Positions 4,063 to 62,467 of a DNA stretch of 64,000 nt are shown piece after piece. Positions within the stretch are counted from its first letter, which is position 1. Every line of letters starts with the position of its first letter. Position numbers and translations under genes: made by a program. Source of the stretch: Halalkalibacter suaedae (GTDB lineage Bacteria > Bacillota > Bacilli > Bacillales > Bacillaceae_D); the NCBI RefSeq assembly GCF_017939705.1, contig NZ_JAGKSQ010000006.1, positions 62,001-126,000 of the forward strand, in the 5' to 3' direction. The notes below the pieces were generated by a model. It worked only from the letters and a program-made list of their open reading frames with translations. It ran no database searches and was not told the origin of the DNA.

Positions 4063-4196
4063 ATCAAAGCGGACGGGATGGGCGGGCCGACTCCTGCAGG
4101 AAATAAGGGCAGGTTGAAATCCACCGGCATAGCCGGTTAGTTCAACGCCCTCCGGCGGGTGCTGCCCCCCATCCCGGTAGCGGAGTCGAAGCGACT
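4063..4196 (-). repeat. Dispersed GC-rich repeat, family A, copy 1
   Basis: About 135 bp, far more GC-rich than its surroundings. Ends are AAAGCGGACGGGATGGG and CCCATCCCGGTAGCGGAGTC, which pair as an inverted repeat; an inner CACCGGC/GCCGGT stem is also present. Copies 2 (20258-20394) and 3 (61895-62030) are in the opposite orientation. No coding potential. Confidence 0.85.
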
Positions 4197-54997: not shown

Positions 54998-55144
54998 AAA
55001 AGAGGATGGGACAAAAGTGATTTTACTAACAGAAATTCCGAACAATGATAGTTGGCGGACGTAAACCGCTCCTGAAATATACTACGCTAGGTAATTGCTT
55101 TGTTCGGTATTTCAGTTAGACACTTTAGTTATGTCCCAGCCTCC
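54998..55144 (-). repeat. Dispersed repeat, family B, copy 3 (internally deleted)
   Basis: Both ends match copy 2 (AGAGGATGGGACAAAAGTG and TTAGTTATGTCCCAGCCTC), but the GC-rich middle is missing: CTGAAATATACTACGCT joins directly to AGGTAATTGCTTTGTTCGG. About 147 bp instead of 240. An AT-rich hairpin CGCAAAAT/ATTTTGCG (55161-55186) follows. Confidence 0.85.
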
Positions 55145-55232: not shown

Positions 55233-55922
55233 CTATTCAAGTAACCCATACTTCTTTTTAAACCTAGTTAATATTTTCAGCCATGACTTACCAAAGACAA
55301 GGAAGAAGAACACATTTGAGATGGCATGCATGAAGTCAAAGAATGCACTGCCGAGGAAATATGATAGGAAGATTGCCCAGCTAAACTGTCCATCAACACC
55401 ATTAATTAAAGCAAACACACCCCAGAGATTCATGATCCAGCCAAATAGAAAACCCCATATGAGGGCAAACATTACTTTTCCCCATTTATATTGCATGAAT
55501 GAACGATTCCGGAGCATTCCTGCGGTGAAGCCGACTAGGCCCCATGCAACCATTTGCCATGGTGTCCATGGTCCTTGACCTAGAATCATATTTGAAGCAA
55601 GTGCTGCAACAACTCCAATAATTAACCCACTTTCAGCTCCAAATACGAGTCCGGCCATCATGATGACAAATGTCGTTGGCTGCACGCTTGGAAGACTTGC
55701 AAATGGAATACGACTAACTGCGGCAATTGCTGCAAGAATAGCGAGTAGAACAATTTCACGAGCTTCAATGACCCGACGCTCAAAATGCACAAGTAAAATA
55801 AGGATCGCTATAATGACAATTCCAAAACTCAACCATAAGTAATGGTTGATCCAAATCACTGACGAAATGACCAGGCTAATTAGAACAAATAATAAAAGCG
55901 TCTTAATGATCCTGAGATTCAT
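55233..55922 (-). CDS. ECF transporter substrate-binding (S) component, probably cobalamin-specific (CbrT-like)
   Basis: 229 aa, six or more membrane helices. The ECF S-component features FIVLLAIL-like early helices, RIPFASLPSVQPTTFVIMMAGLVFGAESG and GFTAGMLRNR are present. CbrT-type S components bind vitamin B12; the assignment rests mainly on the riboswitch-headed operon with transcobalamin-like proteins. ATG 55922 is placed after AGGTGATG, and the gene overlaps the ATPase gene by 20 bases. Last gene of the operon. Confidence 0.8.
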   Translation of the reverse strand: MNLRIIKTLLLFVLISLVISSVIWINHYLWLSFGIVIIAILILLVHFERRVIEAREIVLLAILAAIAAVSRIPFASLPSVQPTTFVIMMAGLVFGAESGLIIGVVAALASNMILGQGPWTPWQMVAWGLVGFTAGMLRNRSFMQYKWGKVMFALIWGFLFGWIMNLWGVFALINGVDGQFSWAIFLSYFLGSAFFDFMHAISNVFFFLVFGKSWLKILTRFKKKYGLLE

Positions 55923-57540
55923 GATGGACATCACCTAACGTTACGATTTCATCTGACACGCCGCGGAAGAGCCTTTGAATCATCGTTGTATAAAAGAAAT
56001 TCCCTTTAAAAAATTGCTGCGGCTGACTTTCAGTAGTAATATGCCCTTGAAACATCATTCCACATGTTGTCGCATATTTAGCAGCGAATTCAACATCATG
56101 TGTCGTCATCATCATCGTCATCCCTTCAGATTGAAGCGATAATAAGATTTGTATAAGCTGTTGTTTGGATATCGGATCAAGTCCTTTTGTCGGTTCATCA
56201 AGAAGTAGAATGTCTGGCTTTCTAAGCAATAAACAGGCTAATGCTGCTTTTTGAAGCTCTCCACCACTTAAATCATATGGATGCTTGTCTAGTAAGTCGG
56301 TCAAACCTAATGAGTCGATCAAGAAAGTCACTTCTTGCTTACTCGTGATCGCCCACTCTTGCATTGTTTGCTTAATCTCCTTAGCAACCGTATCTTGAAT
56401 GAAAAATAATTTAGGATTTTGAGGGAGATAGCCGATTCTTTGTACAATGTCTCGATTTTTCCACGACTTTAGTTGCTTATCAAATAGGAAGACTTTACCC
56501 TTTTGGGGCTTCAAGATACCGTTCATGATTTTCAACAACGTCGTTTTACCTGAACCATTTCCTCCTAGTAATGCATACATTTCGCCTCTTTTAAGTGTGA
56601 AGTCCACTTTGGTTAAGACGGTATTCTTTTCATTATACTGATAGAAGACATTTTTCATTTCAACAACGATCTCTGCGTCTTTGTTTTGCCCCTTCAGTTC
56701 AGCTTGTTGTGGTAGACGAAGCGTTTGACCCTCTAGCCACTTGCGGCCTTTTTTTACACTTAACGGCAGGAAACCAGTTTGTTTCCCTGCAAGAGACAGA
56801 ACGAAGGAAGGAATCGAAGGAATAAATGGTTGTTGCTTTGTTCCCCAAAGTTCCCTGATGACATCTTCAGGCTTACCAGCAGCCAGGATCGAACCCTTTT
56901 CCATCATGACCACCTTATCAGCAACTGTCATAACCTCTTCTAGACGATGCTCTGCCATGATGATCGTCATTCCAAATTCCTCATTTAGTCGCACAAGCAT
57001 ATCCAAAAACTCTCTCGCGCTGACAGGATCAAGCTGTGCAGTTGGTTCATCTAATAACAAAACATTCGGTTGCATTAACAGGATCGATGCTAGATTTAAT
57101 TGCTGCTTTTGTCCACCGGAAAGCTCATGCGTTTTACGTGTTAGCAATGATTCTGCCCCAATAAAATGCACCATTTCTGCCACACGATTTCGCATTTCAC
57201 TTGTCGGTAGTCCAATGTTTTCCAAGCCAAAAACAAGCTCGTGTAGAACTTCATCTGCAACAACTTGATTTTCAGGATCTTGAAACACAAATCCAATTTC
57301 ACCATTTGAATCATTGCGATCCTTAACAGAAACTCCGTTAAATGAACACTCACCTTCAAAAATACCATGTGGTTGAATATCCTTTTTTAATAGCTTTAAT
57401 AGCGTGCTTTTTCCACAACCAGATGGACCAAATAAGACAACGAATTGTCCCCTCTCAATGTCTAACGATACATCTTTTAGTGCAGGAGTTAGCATATCAG
57501 GATATGTAAATTTAATATTTTTTAATTGAATATACGCCAT
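55903..57540 (-). CDS. ECF transporter energising ATPase, two fused domains (EcfA-EcfA')
   Basis: 545 aa with two ABC ATPase domains. Domain 1 (about residues 1-240) has GPSGCGKST, LSGGQKQQL and LLLDEPTAQLD; domain 2 (about 300-510) has GGNGSGKTT, LSGGELQKA and LLLDEPTKGLD. Both have intact catalytic Glu. The fused arrangement replaces separate EcfA1/EcfA2 and is typical for dedicated, group I ECF modules. It powers uptake with EcfT and the S component next to it. ATG 57540; the upstream ribosome site GGGAGGG is 12 bases away, so coupling to ecfT is likely. Confidence 0.9.
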   Translation of the reverse strand: MAYIQLKNIKFTYPDMLTPALKDVSLDIERGQFVVLFGPSGCGKSTLLKLLKKDIQPHGIFEGECSFNGVSVKDRNDSNGEIGFVFQDPENQVVADEVLHELVFGLENIGLPTSEMRNRVAEMVHFIGAESLLTRKTHELSGGQKQQLNLASILLMQPNVLLLDEPTAQLDPVSAREFLDMLVRLNEEFGMTIIMAEHRLEEVMTVADKVVMMEKGSILAAGKPEDVIRELWGTKQQPFIPSIPSFVLSLAGKQTGFLPLSVKKGRKWLEGQTLRLPQQAELKGQNKDAEIVVEMKNVFYQYNEKNTVLTKVDFTLKRGEMYALLGGNGSGKTTLLKIMNGILKPQKGKVFLFDKQLKSWKNRDIVQRIGYLPQNPKLFFIQDTVAKEIKQTMQEWAITSKQEVTFLIDSLGLTDLLDKHPYDLSGGELQKAALACLLLRKPDILLLDEPTKGLDPISKQQLIQILLSLQSEGMTMMMTTHDVEFAAKYATTCGMMFQGHITTESQPQQFFKGNFFYTTMIQRLFRGVSDEIVTLGDVHHESQDH

Positions 57541-58400
57541 TTAAGATAGCTCCCTCCCTCGACTAAAAGTGGAAATGATAGGTATAGAACAAATACTAGT
57601 AAAATCAGGGGTTCTAGTTGCGTGAGTTGGATCGATTCCATTACAGGATAAATTGTTAAATGACCATACTGCAACATGCGACCAATCAGAGAACCAACAA
57701 GCAATAAAAATAAGAACGAAATAGCCCAAACATCGCCTCTATGCCAGCGATAATGCTCATAGGCACTGCGTTTTCCACTTCCATAACCACGAGCTTTCAT
57801 CGAATCAGCTGTTTGAATAGCCTCTTCTAATGAATACGTAAGCAGAACTTGAACAAATAGGAGTCCATTCTTAGCCTTGTCCCTCAAGGATCCTGTTGTC
57901 ACAGTAATCGCTTTGCTTTGTTGTACAGCAGAGATGTCATCTAATCTCCGTTTCATTAAAGGAATAAAACGCAGCGTTAACATGAGCAGAACAGCAAACT
58001 GAGGTAACACTCTCGCAAATAAAAATAATAATTTATTTGGTGTCATCACTTCATTGTAGGAAACAAACAATGAAACAATACCAATTAGAGATAATGCAGT
58101 AATTCCCCCGTACAGAACAGCCTCTAATGTCACGCGATGCTCAAAAATGATAAACAACAGATGAAGACCACGTTCATTAAAGAGCGGATTTAGCACGACA
58201 ATGAAAAGACCGCTGAAAAGGATAAAATAGCGCCATCTTTTTATCCCTTTACACCGATCTTGCTGATAATTAATACCAAGAATGATCAAAAACGCAGCAA
58301 CCAGGAAGACAGGATGGAGCATGATCATCAATAAGGAAATCGCACCAACATAATAAAAAAATGTCACAAACGGGTGAAACTCATGAAAACGATGAATCAT
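57522..58400 (-). CDS. ECF transporter transmembrane coupling protein (EcfT/CbiQ-like)
   Basis: 292 aa, about six membrane helices. The two conserved Ala-Arg-Gly-type coupling motifs are represented by QTADSMKARGYGSGKRS (about residue 205) and the charged loop near RFIPLMKRRLDDISAVQQSKA. EcfT links the ATPases to the S component. ATG 58400 follows GGAGG. Overlaps the ATPase gene by 19 bases. Confidence 0.88.
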   Translation of the reverse strand: MIHRFHEFHPFVTFFYYVGAISLLMIMLHPVFLVAAFLIILGINYQQDRCKGIKRWRYFILFSGLFIVVLNPLFNERGLHLLFIIFEHRVTLEAVLYGGITALSLIGIVSLFVSYNEVMTPNKLLFLFARVLPQFAVLLMLTLRFIPLMKRRLDDISAVQQSKAITVTTGSLRDKAKNGLLFVQVLLTYSLEEAIQTADSMKARGYGSGKRSAYEHYRWHRGDVWAISFLFLLLVGSLIGRMLQYGHLTIYPVMESIQLTQLEPLILLVFVLYLSFPLLVEGGSYLKWRIFN

Positions 58401-58415
58401 TGTCTTCCTCCGATA

Positions 58416-59195
58416 CTACTCAGTATATAACCACTCAATTTGGTCTCCGGCCTTAACCGTCGACACCCCAGCACCCTTCGTAAGTCCAGCACCATTGATC
58501 TTAGCAATCCAGCCACTTGTACTCCCAAAATCAAATTCATAATAATTTGCGATACCATGTACATAGGCAGTAGGCCCTGAGCCACTTGCATCAACAACAA
58601 TGTTACTATTCTTTGCATGTCTCAGTAAAATAGATAAAGCAGTGTCTCCTTCTTGATAAACAACAGTCGTTTTGCCACTAATTGTACCAACACTCTTTGG
58701 ACCGTTAATGACAATACTTACGGTCTCCTTAGCCACTTCTTCCTTTTTGGGTGTTTCAGTTTGACTAGGCTTCGGGCTAACCTTCGTTTTTTCTTCTTTT
58801 GTATTTGACTGTGCCGGCTTACTCGCATCATTTTCCTGTTTCGTCTTTTGGTTCGTTGAATCACTAGCCTTTTCTTTTTCCTTGACCGTCTTAGTAGGTG
58901 GAGTTTCTTCGGTCTTTGCAGTAGAGGATGAACTCTCTTTTTCGACTTCTGCTTCAGAAGCATTTGTCTCTGTTTCTTCTGCCTCTACTTCCTTCGTTTC
59001 CTGCTCAACTTCAACATCTGTATTCGGGTCCTCTTCGTCTAATACAACCTCTTCTTCATTCTCCTCTACTCCACTTACATTATCAACAGACGGAGTTGAC
59101 TCAACGATCTTATCATTAGCTCCACATCCTAATAAGGATAAAATAAATATTATACTTAAGCAAAAGGTAAGTAAGGCTTTCTTGTTTGTTTTCAA
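58416..59195 (-). CDS. Lipoprotein with transcobalamin-like C-terminal domain (DUF4430)
   Basis: 259 aa. Lipobox LSLLGCG (Cys24) anchors it outside the membrane. Residues 35-160 are a long, low-complexity Glu/Thr/Lys/Ser stalk. The last 100 residues (VSIVINGPKSVGTISGKT through SGWIAKINGAGLTKGAGVSTVKAGDQIEWLY) are a DUF4430 domain, the family also named transcobalamin-like C-terminal. With the surface protein upstream and the ECF genes downstream it likely binds B12 and passes it to the transporter. TTG 59195 follows AAGGAGG by six bases. Confidence 0.85.
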   Translation of the reverse strand: MKTNKKALLTFCLSIIFILSLLGCGANDKIVESTPSVDNVSGVEENEEEVVLDEEDPNTDVEVEQETKEVEAEETETNASEAEVEKESSSSTAKTEETPPTKTVKEKEKASDSTNQKTKQENDASKPAQSNTKEEKTKVSPKPSQTETPKKEEVAKETVSIVINGPKSVGTISGKTTVVYQEGDTALSILLRHAKNSNIVVDASGSGPTAYVHGIANYYEFDFGSTSGWIAKINGAGLTKGAGVSTVKAGDQIEWLYTE

Positions 59196-59259
59196 AATGA
59201 TCCTCCTTTAACTTCGATTAAAAACAGATGATAATCTTAGAGGTACCCTTACATCGTAT

Positions 59260-59296
59260 GAAAGCCTACTATGAGTCCAATCTCATAGTAGGCTTC
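59260..59296 (-). terminator. Hairpin after the transcobalamin-like surface protein gene
   Basis: GAAGCCTACTATGAG pairs with CTCATAGTAGGCTTC over a short loop. No strong U-run follows, so it may be a partial terminator or an mRNA processing/stabilising site that lowers expression of the downstream genes. Confidence 0.5.
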
Positions 59297-59338
59297 ATTC
59301 AATCAATCAAAGTTCAGTCAATATAAGATCTTAACGTC

Positions 59339-61381
59339 TTACTGAAACTGCTTCTTTCTTCTGATAAGGAAGGTACCCATGATCAAAAGAACAAATCCTG
59401 TTAGAAGCATTGTGTAGTCAGTTGTTGCCGTATCTGGTAGGCGTTCCCCTTGTTCATTAGAGGATTTTTGATCGCTATTATCGACTACTTCTTCTTGAGT
59501 ATCTTCATTCGGTGCTGTTTCAACACCTACAGACTTTAAATTATATAGTGATCCTTGTCCATTTAGGAAGAGTTGATATGCGACTACTCCTCTAAACGCT
59601 TGATCTGTTGAAAAACTATCACTTTCCGTAGCTGTCATATAATAGAATCCACCATCTTCATTTTGGAAGGTAAGTAGGTATTCAATAATACTTTGCCCGT
59701 CATCCTTTGTATAACTCGTACCATTCGCGTCAATTCCTAATGCAGAAAGAGCAATTACTACTTGTGAAGCTGTTGAACTATTATCGATGTTATTTACATT
59801 ATTTTGTAGGTAGTCTAACCCAGCTTCAACGCTAGAAGCTACATTCGCATCATTCTTATAAGGTGCTAATGCAGTTAGAACAGCTGCCGTTGTATCAATA
59901 TCAGCGGCACCGCCGTCAGACCAAGACCATCCACCATCAGAATTTTGCTTTTCAACAAGACGATTGATGATCGATTCTCTTGTCCACGTTGCATCCGCCG
60001 GAACCTCAAAACCATAGCTATCTAAAGCAATAAGTGCATAAATTACACCATTTAGTCCTTGTTTTTCAATCGTTCCATTATAAATCTTTTCAACTAGATT
60101 ATAGCCTTCAAAATCAGTAGGATTGCCACCAGCTGCTAAAATACCTAAAGTGTAACGTTCATAATCAGTGATATTTCTAAATTCACCGTTAACTTCATTA
60201 AACGTTGCTTTCACAGCAGCTAGGTAGCTTTCAGGCACTTGTTTGCCAGCCTTATTTAAGGCAACAGCTTGCCATTCGCCAACAGTCCCAGCTAATACAT
60301 AGTCTGCAGCTGAATTGATTGAAGATTTAATCTGTTCAGCATCGAATGGTTGAGTAGAACCTTCATTGTCTGGAGTTTCTTTAACGGGATCATCAGCAGG
60401 AACTTCCGTTTCCCATGATTCATACTTAAACGTGATGGTTTGATCTTCAGGTGTGAGTACATAGCTATCTGCTCCTACTTCTGCTGAAGTATCATTCACA
60501 TAAAAAGCCCAAAAATAAGGATCTTCAGCGGTCTTTCCATTAATTGTCTTAATGTATTTACCCCAGTCTGTTTCCTCATATTGAACATTTTCCGTCCCAA
60601 CTGAAGCTACTAACGCATCAAATGCTGTCGCTCCCTCTTCAAGAACAAGGTCCTTTAATTCAATCGAAACAACGTCAGATGGTTCTGTGACTACTTCTTC
60701 CGTTTCCCAAGACTCATACTTAAATGTGATGGTTTGATCTTCAGGTGTGAGTACATAGCTATCTGCTCCTACTTCTGCTGAAGTATCATTTACATAAAAA
60801 GCCCAAAAATAAGGATCTTCAGCGGTCTTTCCATTAATTGTCTTAATGTATTTACCCCAGTCTGTTTCCTCATATTGAACATTTTCCGTCCCAACTGAAG
60901 CTACTAACGCATCGAATGCTGTCGCTCCCTCTTCAAGAACAAGGTCCTTTAATTCAATCGAAACGACGTCAGATGGTTCTGTGACTACTTCTTCCGTTTC
61001 CCAAGACTCATACTTAAACGCGATTGTTTGATCTTCAGGTGCGAGCACATAGCTATCTGCTCCTACTTCTGCTGAAGTATCATTCACATAAAAAGCCCAA
61101 AAATAAGGATCTTCAGCGGTCTTTCCATTAATTGTCTTAATGTATTTACCCCAGTCTGTTTCCTCATATTGAACATTTTCCGTCCCAACTGAAGCTACTA
61201 ACGCATCAAATGCTGTCGCTCCCTCTTCTAATGTAAGCTCACTTAAGGTAATGATAACTTCAGTTGTATCTACTACTGCTTGCTCTGACACGTCTGCAGC
61301 AAAAGCAGATGTTTGGACGCCACCAAAGAACAGTGTAAACACTAACAATATACTCAGTAATGCATTGATATTTCTTTTCAT
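59339..61381 (-). CDS. Sortase-anchored transcobalamin-like surface protein
   Basis: 680 aa. Signal peptide residues 1-28 (ends TSAFA). Three tandem 98-residue repeats (about 41-330), each with LEEGATAFDALVASVG and DPYFWAFYVNDTS, resemble the DUF4430 domain. Residues 350-610 form an alpha/alpha toroid of the prenyltransferase/terpene-cyclase type with NSDGGWSWSDGG and NEDGGFYYM, similar to the N-terminal half of animal transcobalamin and intrinsic factor. The C-terminus has LPDTA (648-652), a hydrophobic segment and RRKK, a sortase signal. ATG 61381 has GGGGGAG ten bases upstream; ATG 61420 behind AGGGG is an alternative. First gene behind a cobalamin riboswitch. Confidence 0.88.
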   Translation of the reverse strand: MKRNINALLSILLVFTLFFGGVQTSAFAADVSEQAVVDTTEVIITLSELTLEEGATAFDALVASVGTENVQYEETDWGKYIKTINGKTAEDPYFWAFYVNDTSAEVGADSYVLAPEDQTIAFKYESWETEEVVTEPSDVVSIELKDLVLEEGATAFDALVASVGTENVQYEETDWGKYIKTINGKTAEDPYFWAFYVNDTSAEVGADSYVLTPEDQTITFKYESWETEEVVTEPSDVVSIELKDLVLEEGATAFDALVASVGTENVQYEETDWGKYIKTINGKTAEDPYFWAFYVNDTSAEVGADSYVLTPEDQTITFKYESWETEVPADDPVKETPDNEGSTQPFDAEQIKSSINSAADYVLAGTVGEWQAVALNKAGKQVPESYLAAVKATFNEVNGEFRNITDYERYTLGILAAGGNPTDFEGYNLVEKIYNGTIEKQGLNGVIYALIALDSYGFEVPADATWTRESIINRLVEKQNSDGGWSWSDGGAADIDTTAAVLTALAPYKNDANVASSVEAGLDYLQNNVNNIDNSSTASQVVIALSALGIDANGTSYTKDDGQSIIEYLLTFQNEDGGFYYMTATESDSFSTDQAFRGVVAYQLFLNGQGSLYNLKSVGVETAPNEDTQEEVVDNSDQKSSNEQGERLPDTATTDYTMLLTGFVLLIMGTFLIRRKKQFQ
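60400..61262 (-). repeat. Three 294-bp tandem repeats inside the surface protein gene
   Basis: The motif CATACTTAAA recurs at 60421, 60715 and 61009, a period of exactly 294 bp (98 codons). The copies are nearly identical at the DNA level over most of their length, so the amplification is recent or maintained by recombination. Copy number may vary between strains. Confidence 0.92.
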
Positions 61382-61420
61382 TTGTCTTTGTCTCCCCCAC
61401 TTTTTATTAAATGAATGCAT

Positions 61421-61443
61421 AAAAAAAACCCCTAAAACAGGAG
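61421..61443 (-). terminator. Possible expression-platform terminator
   Basis: CTCCT (61443-61439) can pair with AGGGG (61433-61429), followed by TTTTTTTT on the minus strand. The stem is only five pairs; the same AGGGG could be a ribosome site for ATG 61420. Confidence 0.35.
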
Positions 61444-61523
61444 ACAAAATTGTTAAGCATGCACGTAGACAAATATCCAACGTTTTACTTAACACCTCTC
61501 CTATCCGCGTAGAACTTGGTGTA

Positions 61524-61687
61524 CAAAAACAGGCAGGTTTCCTGGCTCATGAGTCTCTGCTTCCTACGCCTTCCCATCCAACGGACAGTGACCTTTGTAG
61601 GTTGCTCTCATTTACAGTGGCGGGACCGCGTTGGCATCAAACCAACTTCCCTATTAAGCTAGTACTTAAAAACTAGCACCTGTTTTT
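61524..61687 (-). ncRNA. Cobalamin riboswitch
   Basis: Minus strand. P1 arms AAAAACAGG (61687-61679) and CCTGTTTTT (61533-61525) close the element. The B12 box is present as GCCACTGTAAATG (61621-61609), followed by the conserved long-arm regions, and GAGTCTCTGC/AGGAAACC-type core segments near 61535-61560. Size 164 bases. Adenosylcobalamin or another cobalamin should switch off the downstream surface-protein and ECF genes. Confidence 0.92.
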
Positions 61688-61711
61688 CTAAATATTTGTT
61701 ATGTCGAGGTC

Positions 61712-61735
61712 ATTATACCTAATAATGAATAGCTT
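61712..61735 (-). promoter_or_regulatory. Promoter of the cobalamin operon
   Basis: Perfect -10 TATAAT on the minus strand (61717-61712). The best -35, TGTACA, lies 18 bases upstream and is weak. Transcription would start about 20 bases before the riboswitch. Confidence 0.5.
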
Positions 61736-61894
61736 GTACACATTTTATTGAATAGGAAACAATTAACATTCACCTAGAGAAAAAGGGTATCCAACACTTG
61801 GAAAGACACCCTACTCACATGATTTTTCCGTTATAAAATAAGATATTGTACCAGTTCAATTGGACGCTTATACCTTGTGAGTCCATTGATGAGA

Positions 61895-62030
61895 TGCTTG
61901 GACTCCGCTACCGGGATGGGGGGCAGCACCGCCGGAGGGCGTGGAACTAACCGGCTGTGCCGGTGGATTTCCACCTTGCCCTTTCTATCCTGCAGGAGTC
62001 GGCCTCCCATCCCGTCCGCTTTGAAAGAGG
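61895..62030 (+). repeat. Dispersed GC-rich repeat, family A, copy 3
   Basis: From TGCTTGGACTCCGCTACCGGG to CCCATCCCGTCCGCTTTGAA, same orientation as copy 2. It shares AGGGCGTGGAACTAACCGG and ATCCTGCAGGAGTCGGCC. It directly precedes the family B copy 4. Confidence 0.85.
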
Positions 62031-62070: not shown

Positions 62071-62467
62071 TGTCTAACTGAAATACGAATAAAGCAATCA
62101 CGTAGCGGATGAAATATACGTAGACTCCTGCGGGATCTAAAGCGAAGCCACTGAAAAAGTCCCTTTGAGCAGGTTCGAGGAAGCAGCAATGGCTCCACTC
62201 GTTGCACGCCTGCTATGATAAACCCACTCATAGCAACGCTTAAGACAATGCAACGGTTTCGCTCATTGCTTTAAGGCCACTAAAAAAGGTGAAAATCACA
62301 CCTTTTTCAGTGGCCTCATCTAAAGCCAAGGGTGAGACCCCACAGGCGAAGCCGAGGAGGCTCACCGGCTTCCCGCGGAAAGCGAAGTATATTTCAGGAG
62401 CGGTTCACATCCGCCAATGATCATTGTTCGGATTTTCTATTAGTTAAATCACTTTCATCCCAGCCTC
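62071..62467 (+). repeat. Dispersed repeat, family B, copy 4, split by element C4
   Basis: Left part TGTCTAACTGAAATACGAAT...GACTCCTGCGGGATCTAAAGC (to 62143), right part AAGGGTGAGACCCCACAGG...CATCCCAGCCTC. Removing element C4 and one target copy restores CGGGATCTAAAGCCAAGG as in copy 1. Confidence 0.9.
62144..62318 (-). mobile_element. MITE-like element C, copy 4, with target-site duplication
   Basis: 175 bp. Terminal inverted repeats GAAGCCACTGAAAAAG and CTTTTTCAGTGGCCTC (15 of 16 pair). Flanked on both sides by ATCTAAAGC (62135-62143 and 62319-62327), a perfect 9-bp duplication. Orientation is opposite to copies 1 and 2. No coding capacity, so it must have moved with a transposase supplied elsewhere. 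Confidence 0.92.

Follow-up and report, generated by a model that had tools for sequence, protein, structure and literature searches.

The 64,000 nt of Halalkalibacter suaedae DNA analyzed here (the window; GCF_017939705.1, NZ_JAGKSQ010000006.1, positions 62,001–126,000, forward) hold an operon that probably serves B12 (corrinoid) salvage in a Bacillaceae-type bacterium lacking at least one ring-synthesis gene. It consists of a cobalamin riboswitch followed by five genes, all on the (−) strand, in the order wall protein, DUF4430 lipoprotein, EcfT, fused EcfA-EcfA′, and S component. The role in B12 uptake that the initial annotation proposed is supported independently by the riboswitch, the match of the S component to CbrT, the presence of B12 enzymes in a host genome without CbiC, and the conserved layout; judged from sequence, the operon very likely imports B12.

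Layout and predicted regulation of the operon

The features, in window positions, are as follows.

61712–61740 (−): promoter-like site TGTACA-17-TATAAT, directly 5′ of the aptamer (consensus scan, 10/12 matches)
61515–61698 (−): cobalamin riboswitch aptamer (RF00174, 119.7 bits, E-value of 1.9e-29, model positions 1–189 of 189)
61429–61443 (−): terminator-like hairpin CTCCTGTTTTAGGGG with a T8 tail, between the aptamer and the wall-protein gene (scan and folding)
59339–61381 (−): wall protein, 680 aa, with signal peptide, three DUF4430 repeats, toroid, and sorting signal (translation, Pfam, AlphaFold2)
60991–61284 (−): repeat unit 1 with DUF4430 (PF14478), 294-nt direct repeat (87% identity to the reference copy)
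60697–60990 (−): repeat unit 2 with DUF4430 (PF14478), 294-nt direct repeat (98% identity to the reference copy)
60403–60696 (−): repeat unit 3 with DUF4430, the reference copy, 294 nt
59516–60340 (−): alpha/alpha toroid (AlphaFold2 model; weak Prenyltrans/SQHop matches in Pfam)
59351–59440 (−): sorting signal (LPDTAT..., hydrophobic stretch, RRKK tail; NF058670, LPxTATN)
59262–59295 (−): 14-bp perfect hairpin without a T tail, in the gap between the wall-protein and lipoprotein genes (sequence)
58416–59195 (−): DUF4430 lipoprotein, 259 aa (Pfam 49.1 bits, cut-off 23.8)
57522–58400 (−): EcfT, CbiQ family (PF02361, E-value of 6.1e-14)
55903–57540 (−): fused EcfA-EcfA′ ATPase (two ABC_tran stretches; TIGR04520 and TIGR04521 above cut-off)
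55233–55934 (−): S component, CbrT family (profile match to 6fnp)

As initially annotated, a cobalamin riboswitch lies 5′ of the wall-protein gene; the RF00174 aptamer (gathering score 31.5 bits) was the sole Rfam match at gathering score within the 64-kb window. Promoter-like sites in the region were near chance (20 found versus 16.6 expected), and position is the chief argument for the one preceding the aptamer. In the leader, the terminator-like hairpin with its T8 tail, together with an AGGAG stretch 5′ of it that could pair with the hairpin as an antiterminator (folding, alternative centroid), forms a candidate terminator/antiterminator expression platform; terminator-like sites overall were near chance (5 found versus 4.5 expected).

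The mechanical start of the wall-protein ORF (61495; 718 aa) falls within this leader, and translation probably begins with the ATG at 61381, preceded by GGGGGAG, to give 680 residues with an N terminus resembling a signal peptide. The predicted composition of three DUF4430 repeats, a toroid, and a sorting signal was confirmed by Pfam, AlphaFold2, and NF058670. Specifically, DUF4430 gave three matches (123.9 bits summed; cut-off 23.8), and the repeats, being 87–98% identical as 294-nt units and 94–97% alike across the domain, look recently duplicated or homogenized. AlphaFold2 modeling covered residues 276–665, counted along the 718-aa ORF (pLDDT 91.4, pTM 0.74). In the model, DUF4430 runs from a helix (16–24) to strands 29–34, 37–43, 52–58, and 79–85, an order that, judged from the run of strands as a whole, would be compatible with a beta-hairpin inserted after the helix. 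The toroid is helical throughout (pLDDT ~97 over most of it), and its Pfam matches are weak (Prenyltrans 20.2 bits, below the 26.5 cut-off). The sorting signal barely reaches NF058670 (32.4 bits versus a cut-off of 32); the host genome has five sortase-domain matches.

The lipoprotein starts at a TTG behind AAAGGAGG and carries a lipobox (Cys24 within LSLLGC), an acidic linker, and a C-terminal DUF4430 at 58422–58649, with 11 invariant residues, SGW included, among 33 aligned sequences. The whole gap that separates its gene from that of the wall protein folds at −42.1 kcal/mol (z −4.1), and the hairpin there is perhaps a processing point or a 3′ end that sets different levels of the two proteins.

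The downstream genes likewise proved to be what they had been called (lipoprotein, EcfT, fused EcfA-EcfA′, and S component), as judged by Pfam, TIGR families, and the CbrT match. The S-component profile, built from 33 sequences, matched residues 6–177 of 182 of 6fnp, the B12-specific CbrT, in the PDB (E-value of 6.7e-23; next match 0.059), and Pfam returned ECF_trnsprt and ECF-ribofla_trS. A BtuFCD system within the operon was rejected, the four non-ATPase genes having no BtuF- or BtuC-type Pfam match listed.

The host genome (98.7% complete) encodes MetH (TIGR02082, 1071 bits, cut-off 1010.85) and the B12-dependent class II ribonucleotide reductase NrdJ (599 bits, cut-off 399.95), and a search of it for CbiC found none. 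It has three cobalamin riboswitches; the second precedes metE, with a PduO-type adenosyltransferase on its other side, and the third precedes a class I type ribonucleotide reductase alpha gene, so that both stand before B12-independent isozymes. DUF4430 is confined to the wall-protein and lipoprotein genes of the operon. These data also bear on whether the operon could be a cobalt importer of the CbiMNQO type under B12 control, given that its EcfT is of the CbiQ family, its ATPase matches cbiO, and cobalamin riboswitches control many cobalt transporters, according to excerpts of PMC3766115. We rejected this reading as extremely improbable on the basis of the CbrT-like S component, with no CbiM among its Pfam and PDB matches listed, and of the genome without CbiC, in which cobalt would be less needed for ring synthesis; the B12-carrier-type domains outside the cell also argue against it.

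Relation of the outer proteins to animal B12 carriers

The initial annotation likened the wall protein to transcobalamin and suggested comparing its predicted structure with that carrier. In sequence, the likeness held for the DUF4430 repeats: nine of the 11 PDB sequences matched by the repeat profile were transcobalamin, haptocorrin, or intrinsic factor, and these were its best matches, with transcobalamin-2 reached by profile A6 (of the DUF4430 repeats) at an E-value of 2.6e-6. A Ruminococcus DUF4430 structure labelled putative metal-binding was matched as well. The profile of the lipoprotein DUF4430 reached no B12 carrier in the PDB; this domain had been cut out because the PDB matches of the alignment with the acidic linker were judged low-complexity.

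At fold level, the window's own toroid model found farnesyltransferase beta chains first and B12 carriers from rank 24 on; the carriers did not stand out in a fold search with the domain order of the window's protein. The likeness emerged from the predicted structure of a relative's toroid-DUF4430 pair, for which ranks 1–15 were all animal B12 carriers (E-values of 1.5e-9 to 1.2e-7; first match thereafter at 4.7e-5). These 15 matches had an rmsd of 10–12 angstroms and query TM-scores of 0.38–0.47, indicating that the relative's two domains are arranged differently from those of transcobalamin.

The toroid itself is nonspecific, its nearest neighbors in sequence being terpene cyclases (squalene-hopene, drimenyl). 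In alignment A3, the invariant toroid residues are W248, D259, T261, and S298. The window's alignment reached squalene-hopene cyclase at 4.1e-12 and B12 carriers via its DUF4430 part only. With the animal-order alignment, cyclases were best (2e-13) and none of the 32 PDB matches was a B12 carrier. PF01122, the animal cobalamin-binding family, was reached by seven of the 46 relatives (best E-value of 0.044) and by none of the 12 animal-order relatives at E-values up to 1.

Both outer proteins probably bind B12. Their ligand might instead be another corrinoid (cobinamide, pseudo-B12) or something else, with B12 handled by the ECF part only; the generic fold of the toroid and its closeness to terpene cyclases, the metal-binding label of the Ruminococcus structure, and the cobinamide uptake also ascribed to ECF-CbrT in excerpts of PMC5997447 would fit this alternative. 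We consider it quite unlikely, since among solved structures the DUF4430 repeats match B12 carriers best, the animal-order toroid-DUF4430 model places these carriers at the top of its fold search, and the riboswitch stands before the wall-protein gene.

Conservation and variation of the locus

A scan of genome contigs seeded with the entire wall protein turned up no relatives; the S-component alignment did. The best 80 of 564 relatives found in this way were used, which weights the census toward close relatives. Beyond the window's own genome, 43 S matches had E-values below 1e-36, and 40 of these were taken (G259, G133, and G211 were left out). Identity over the last 190 residues of the S protein reduced 123 loci to 113 distinct ones, and a phylum-wide sample comprised 20 regions of 137 genomes matched.

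The toroid wall protein lies 5′ of the importer in 105 of the 113 distinct loci of this census. The riboswitch was found at 106, using a profile built on 11 sequences (of which 8 belong to 7 loci inside the census) with control shuffles that preserve base composition only; six of the seven misses were contig ends or truncated loci. At one locus (L109), no long frame for EcfA was seen. Every locus with a wall protein (105/105) also has a DUF4430 gene encoding the lipoprotein or a membrane-anchored counterpart. Within the window's own family, the wall protein is rare, being convincing in 3 of 41 genomes, with five more matching just in or near the sorting signal.

Architecture varies widely, with up to 10 DUF4430 domains and up to three toroids. 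Anchor classes were assigned by simple patterns that leave some SLH proteins unclassed (L076 is SLH by Pfam). Of the 108 wall-protein frames, 104 have a toroid as their final recognized domain. The order opposite to that of animals, as initially annotated, stands for the window's protein and not for its relatives as a whole, some of which place the toroid before DUF4430, as in animals. Long forms carry lipoprotein-type DUF4430 beside toroids within one chain; we dropped a strict rule under which such a domain would come after each toroid, as another DUF4430 type lies in between at some loci. In 6 of the 20 loci sampled across the phylum, the toroid is a separate gene inside the operon. Finally, a single 737-aa frame joins a CbrT-type S component, a toroid, and SLH domains; this fusion rests on one genome, since neither of two samples near G443 (three genomes each) yielded a second.

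In 5 of the 113 loci, there is no wall protein upstream, yet the DUF4430 gene, EcfT, EcfA, and S are kept under a riboswitch, so the wall protein is not indispensable. It might be a store, or a sponge that monopolizes B12 against neighbors, instead of one step in a relay, with the lipoprotein alone feeding the S component, and the wide variation in DUF4430 and toroid numbers, expected if capacity is selected, and the strong hairpin between the two genes would agree with such a role. We regard this as possible but doubtful, given that the wall protein and the DUF4430 gene are nearly always neighbors and that the toroid also occurs fused to an S component or as its own gene in the operon.

We also considered, as a rather unlikely though not negligible arrangement, that the wall-protein toroid and the lipoprotein DUF4430 close on one B12 in trans and that this sandwich is the hand-off to CbrT. 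It is suggested by the terminal position of the toroid, the constant presence of the DUF4430 gene beside the wall protein, the long forms that join both domain types in one chain, and the toroid-CbrT fusion. If true, the carriers of animals would represent the same arrangement in fused and soluble form.

Proposed B12 route and comparison with known systems

In the salvage reading that we prefer, low intracellular adenosylcobalamin would let transcription past the terminator. Sortase would fix the wall protein to peptidoglycan, and the lipoprotein would sit at the membrane. Through transcobalamin-type beta-grasp (DUF4430) domains and the toroid, both would bind B12 outside the cell and hold it at the surface, from where it would move to the CbrT-type S component; this would topple into the neighboring-encoded ECF module and release B12 inside at the expense of ATP. 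That the outer proteins form an ordered relay, with hand-off from wall protein to lipoprotein to S component, has, in our estimate, an even chance of being right. The usual view is that ECF S components bind their substrate without a soluble binding protein, and B12 collection outside the membrane is poorly known in Gram-positive bacteria. The operon is a compact and widely conserved example, apparently regulated, of two carrier-related outer proteins standing ahead of an ECF importer of the CbrT type.

In essence, the central idea was already published by Burroughs et al. in 2007 (PMC1796856). Excerpts of that paper predict transcobalamin-like SLBB surface proteins in low-GC Gram-positives, in which SLBB is fused to a toroid in either order and which carry signal peptides and anchors of the Gram-positive kind. 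A further paralogous SLBB gene and neighboring CbiO and CbiQ genes are described there too, with B12 scavenging as the proposed role, and such bacteria are proposed as the source of the B12 carriers of animals. Equating SLBB with Pfam DUF4430, as we do here, the two descriptions have in common the beta-grasp and toroid, the anchor, the second DUF4430 gene, and the CbiO/CbiQ-type partners. The word riboswitch is absent from the text of PMC1796856, whereas the window's operon has a cobalamin riboswitch, and the excerpts make no mention of a CbrT-type S component or of variation in toroid number and anchor. New here are the riboswitch, the CbrT-type S component, the breadth of conservation, the anchor and toroid variation, and the CbrT-toroid fusion. 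Literature searches found no laboratory test of the type of system proposed in 2007; with this operon, the bacterial origin proposed there for animal B12 carriers becomes directly testable.

Compared with ECF-CbrT of Lactobacillus delbrueckii (6fnp), as described in excerpts of PMC5997447, the S component is homologous over nearly its full length, and EcfT and two ATPase domains are likewise present. The window differs in encoding the ECF module together with the S component, in its fused ATPases, and in the two outer proteins ahead of them; the words "lipoprotein," "riboswitch," and "operon" do not occur in the text of PMC5997447.

Mammalian transcobalamin, haptocorrin, and intrinsic factor likewise consist of a toroid and a beta-grasp domain, the latter homologous by sequence. 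Animal B12 carriers are soluble and taken up by receptors. Among bacteria, BtuG and BtuH are surface B12 proteins of Bacteroides. Such Bacteroides proteins also take part in B12 acquisition at the surface according to excerpts of PMC12751083; they differ in being outer-membrane systems of Gram-negatives. The mammalian carriers, for their part, have one toroid first and one beta-grasp, in excerpts of PMC1796856, whereas in the window's protein three beta-grasp domains come first and a sorting signal is present.

Operon layout, importer and host supply

The initial annotation had claimed an operon made up of a cobalamin riboswitch and genes for a wall protein, a lipoprotein, EcfT, a fused EcfA-EcfA′ and an S component; this operon proved to be real, comprising the following elements.

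61740-61712, minus strand, promoter-like site 5′ of the aptamer
61698-61515, minus strand, cobalamin riboswitch aptamer (119.7 bits)
61443-61429, minus strand, hairpin and eight T, between the aptamer and the first gene
Five genes 3′ of the leader, all on the minus strand, in this order:
59339-61381, wall protein
58416-59195, DUF4430 lipoprotein
57522-58400, EcfT
55903-57540, fused EcfA-EcfA′
55233-55934, S component

Folding of the leader revealed two alternative structures, namely the terminator hairpin or the pairing of an upstream AGGAG stretch to that hairpin, as in riboswitches that act by transcription attenuation; the region holds promoter-like and terminator-like sites in roughly the numbers found in shuffled sequences. 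The wall protein likely starts at the ATG at 61381 rather than at the mechanically called GTG at 61495. The frames of EcfT, EcfA and S overlap, and 15 nt separate the lipoprotein end from EcfT. The gap between the wall-protein and lipoprotein genes folds better than all of 200 shuffles and hosts a perfect 14-bp hairpin with no T tail (59262-59295). Repeats were also observed here: an identical 16-mer flanks the operon in inverted orientation (55107-55122 and 62071-62086, the sole two occurrences in the window with ≤2 mismatches), and GACTCCTGCGGGA, an interspersed repeat found on both strands, has six copies at 4089, 20352, 20699, 49589, 61988 and 62123 (≤1 mismatch; 0.04 expected by chance).

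When compared with the PDB, a profile of 33 S components matched Lactobacillus delbrueckii CbrT (6fnp, residues 6-177 of 182) with an E-value of 6.7e-23, while the second-best solved chain reached 0.059. ECF-CbrT carries cobalamin and cobinamide (PMC5997447). A folate S-component identity scored 27.9 bits, below the cut-off of 60, and is no competitor to the CbrT match.

Next to the operon's own switch, the host genome (98.7% complete) contains two further cobalamin riboswitches, three in total. The second precedes metE, whose divergent neighbor encodes a PduO-type adenosyltransferase, and the third precedes a class I-type ribonucleotide reductase alpha gene, so that both riboswitches lie before genes of B12-independent isozymes. 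The same genome encodes MetH (first found via PF02607; TIGR02082 above cut-off) and the B12-dependent reductase NrdJ (599 bits), and no CbiC was found in it at this completeness, the CbiC step being common to both routes of corrin synthesis. Taken together, these findings indicate that the host makes use of B12, seems to turn off the B12-independent alternatives in its presence and probably must import it. Elsewhere in the host genome there is no DUF4430; the operon's two genes are its only carriers.

Conservation and variation of related loci

A search of 299 genomes from the order gave 43 S matches below E 1e-36 outside the own genome, and 40 of their regions were taken; two genus mates, the window's own locus and 80 further loci from named genomes (the best 80 of 564 relatives, among them Neobacillus, Evansella, Paenibacillus, Oceanobacillus, Cohnella and Sporosarcina) were added. 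Together, these 123 loci represent 113 distinct operons. A toroid-bearing wall protein lies upstream of a DUF4430 gene and the importer in 105 of the 113; five of these 105 (L026, L107, L109, L171 and L174) have the wall protein divided between at least two frames, and no long EcfA frame was seen in L109. Five operons lack an upstream toroid gene (L140, L144, L163, L167 and L175), and three are truncated or at contig ends (L097, L128 and L168). The draft records of L026 and L119 (both Bacillus sp. JCM 19034) and of L109 have their wall-protein and ECF genes broken into several frames.

A riboswitch precedes the first gene in 106/113 operons; of the seven misses, six stop or are cut short at that place and the other is L093. 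The riboswitch profile gave zero matches on shuffled loci. Rfam alone detected it in 7/7 loci of one set and 7/9 of another (not detected in L093 and L211), with L093 yielding no match at gathering score. Three consecutive cobalamin riboswitches stand before one such operon (L096:1608-2640), and L207 has two.

Anchors were classed by simple sequence patterns, which left 11 of 108 wall-protein frames unclassed. On this basis, proteins with a sortase-type tail have one toroid (72/73 frames), and those recognized as SLH-anchored have two or three (17/24). The second gene does not always encode a lipoprotein: among 112 frames, 13 lack a Cys in the first 75 residues, two of them cut at the start (L128 and L168) and 11 with DUF4430 (L064, L072, L077, L080, L134, L138, L139, L140, L144, L148 and L150). 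Most of these 11 have a hydrophobic N-terminal stretch instead, apparently a membrane anchor that stands in for the lipid.

Among 20 sampled loci from more distant members of the phylum, a separate DUF4430 gene lies near S in 16 and a toroid occurs in 16, as its own gene inside the operon in six; S is fused to the ATPases in four, and a further locus, from a single-contig genome, joins S to a toroid and SLH domains. The fusion frames are:

L207:7836-10436, L208:5986-8964, L209:5642-8302 and L210:8076-10460, EcfA-EcfA′ with CbrT-type S component
L197:2613-4826, minus strand, single 737-aa frame with CbrT-type S component, hydrophobic stretch, toroid and SLH domains

In another B12 operon, a copper amine oxidase N-terminal domain is fused to a toroid protein whose N terminus resembles a signal peptide (L200:5766-7139).

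DUF4430 domains, toroids and the animal carriers

The wall-protein DUF4430 domains lie in three 294-nt units, two of which share 98% and 87% identity with the third. We compared a profile of the third repeat and 27 relatives with all PDB sequences (E up to 1), which revealed 11 distinct matches; nine were transcobalamin-2, haptocorrin or intrinsic factor (best 2.6e-6), and the others were a Ruminococcus DUF4430-like protein (0.0015) and one at 0.95. The lipoprotein domain belongs to a second type, in which 11 residues are invariant across 33 sequences, and its profile reached no B12 carrier in the PDB. Repeat 3 and the toroid were modeled confidently (pLDDT 91.4, pTM 0.74); after its helix, repeat 3 shows a strand pair compatible with the hairpin insert that Burroughs et al. 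(2007, PMC1796856) ascribe to the transcobalamin clade.

The toroid itself is not specific to B12 carriers. A Foldseek search of the PDB with the same model did find transcobalamin, the comparison proposed initially, but from rank 24 (E 1.2e-3), with farnesyltransferase beta chains first. By sequence, the window wall-protein alignment matched squalene-hopene cyclase best (4.1e-12) and reached B12 carriers through its DUF4430 part only (haptocorrin, 6.7e-5), and PF01122, the animal family, was hardly reached (7/46 relatives, best 0.044).

The opposite domain order to that of animals, also proposed initially, holds for the window protein but not for long relatives, which place a toroid immediately before a DUF4430 domain as animals do. 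For one such pair (L148, Paenibacillus sp. Marseille-Q4541; pLDDT 86.1, pTM 0.68), ranks 1 to 15 of a PDB fold search were all animal B12 carriers (1.5e-9 to 1.2e-7), followed by drimenyl diphosphate synthase (4.7e-5). These carrier matches had rmsd values of 10-12 angstroms, with query TM-scores of 0.38-0.47, which means that the pair does not recover how the two domains sit relative to each other. By sequence, the alignment of 12 animal-order members matched terpene cyclases best (2e-13); B12 carriers were absent from its 32 PDB matches, and PF01122 from all 12 members.

Proposed uptake route and earlier predictions

We propose that low adenosylcobalamin would permit transcription of the operon, that the wall protein and lipoprotein would hold B12 outside the cell, and that CbrT would take it up, with the ECF module powering release inside. 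For the riboswitch and ECF steps the basis is membership in well-studied families, and for the putative B12 binding by the two outer proteins it is homology and context; we infer the order of hand-off among these proteins and CbrT. A wall protein acting as a B12 store or sponge would also fit, as it is missing from some loci and variable in size. A literature search covering mostly titles and abstract openings, and little subscription literature, showed no experimental test of such surface B12 proteins among the papers listed.

For SLBB domains, which we equate with DUF4430, Burroughs et al. (2007, PMC1796856) describe fusions with a toroid on either side, including a Bacillus protein with a C-terminal toroid, as well as surface anchors, an operon with a second SLBB gene, and CbiO and CbiQ neighbors. 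They note that key enzymes of B12 synthesis are usually lacking, and propose that these proteins scavenge B12 and were transferred to animals; their text nowhere uses the word "riboswitch". The initial finding was real and well read, and the operon is a member of the kind predicted in 2007, to which our analysis brings no new principle but added support and detail.
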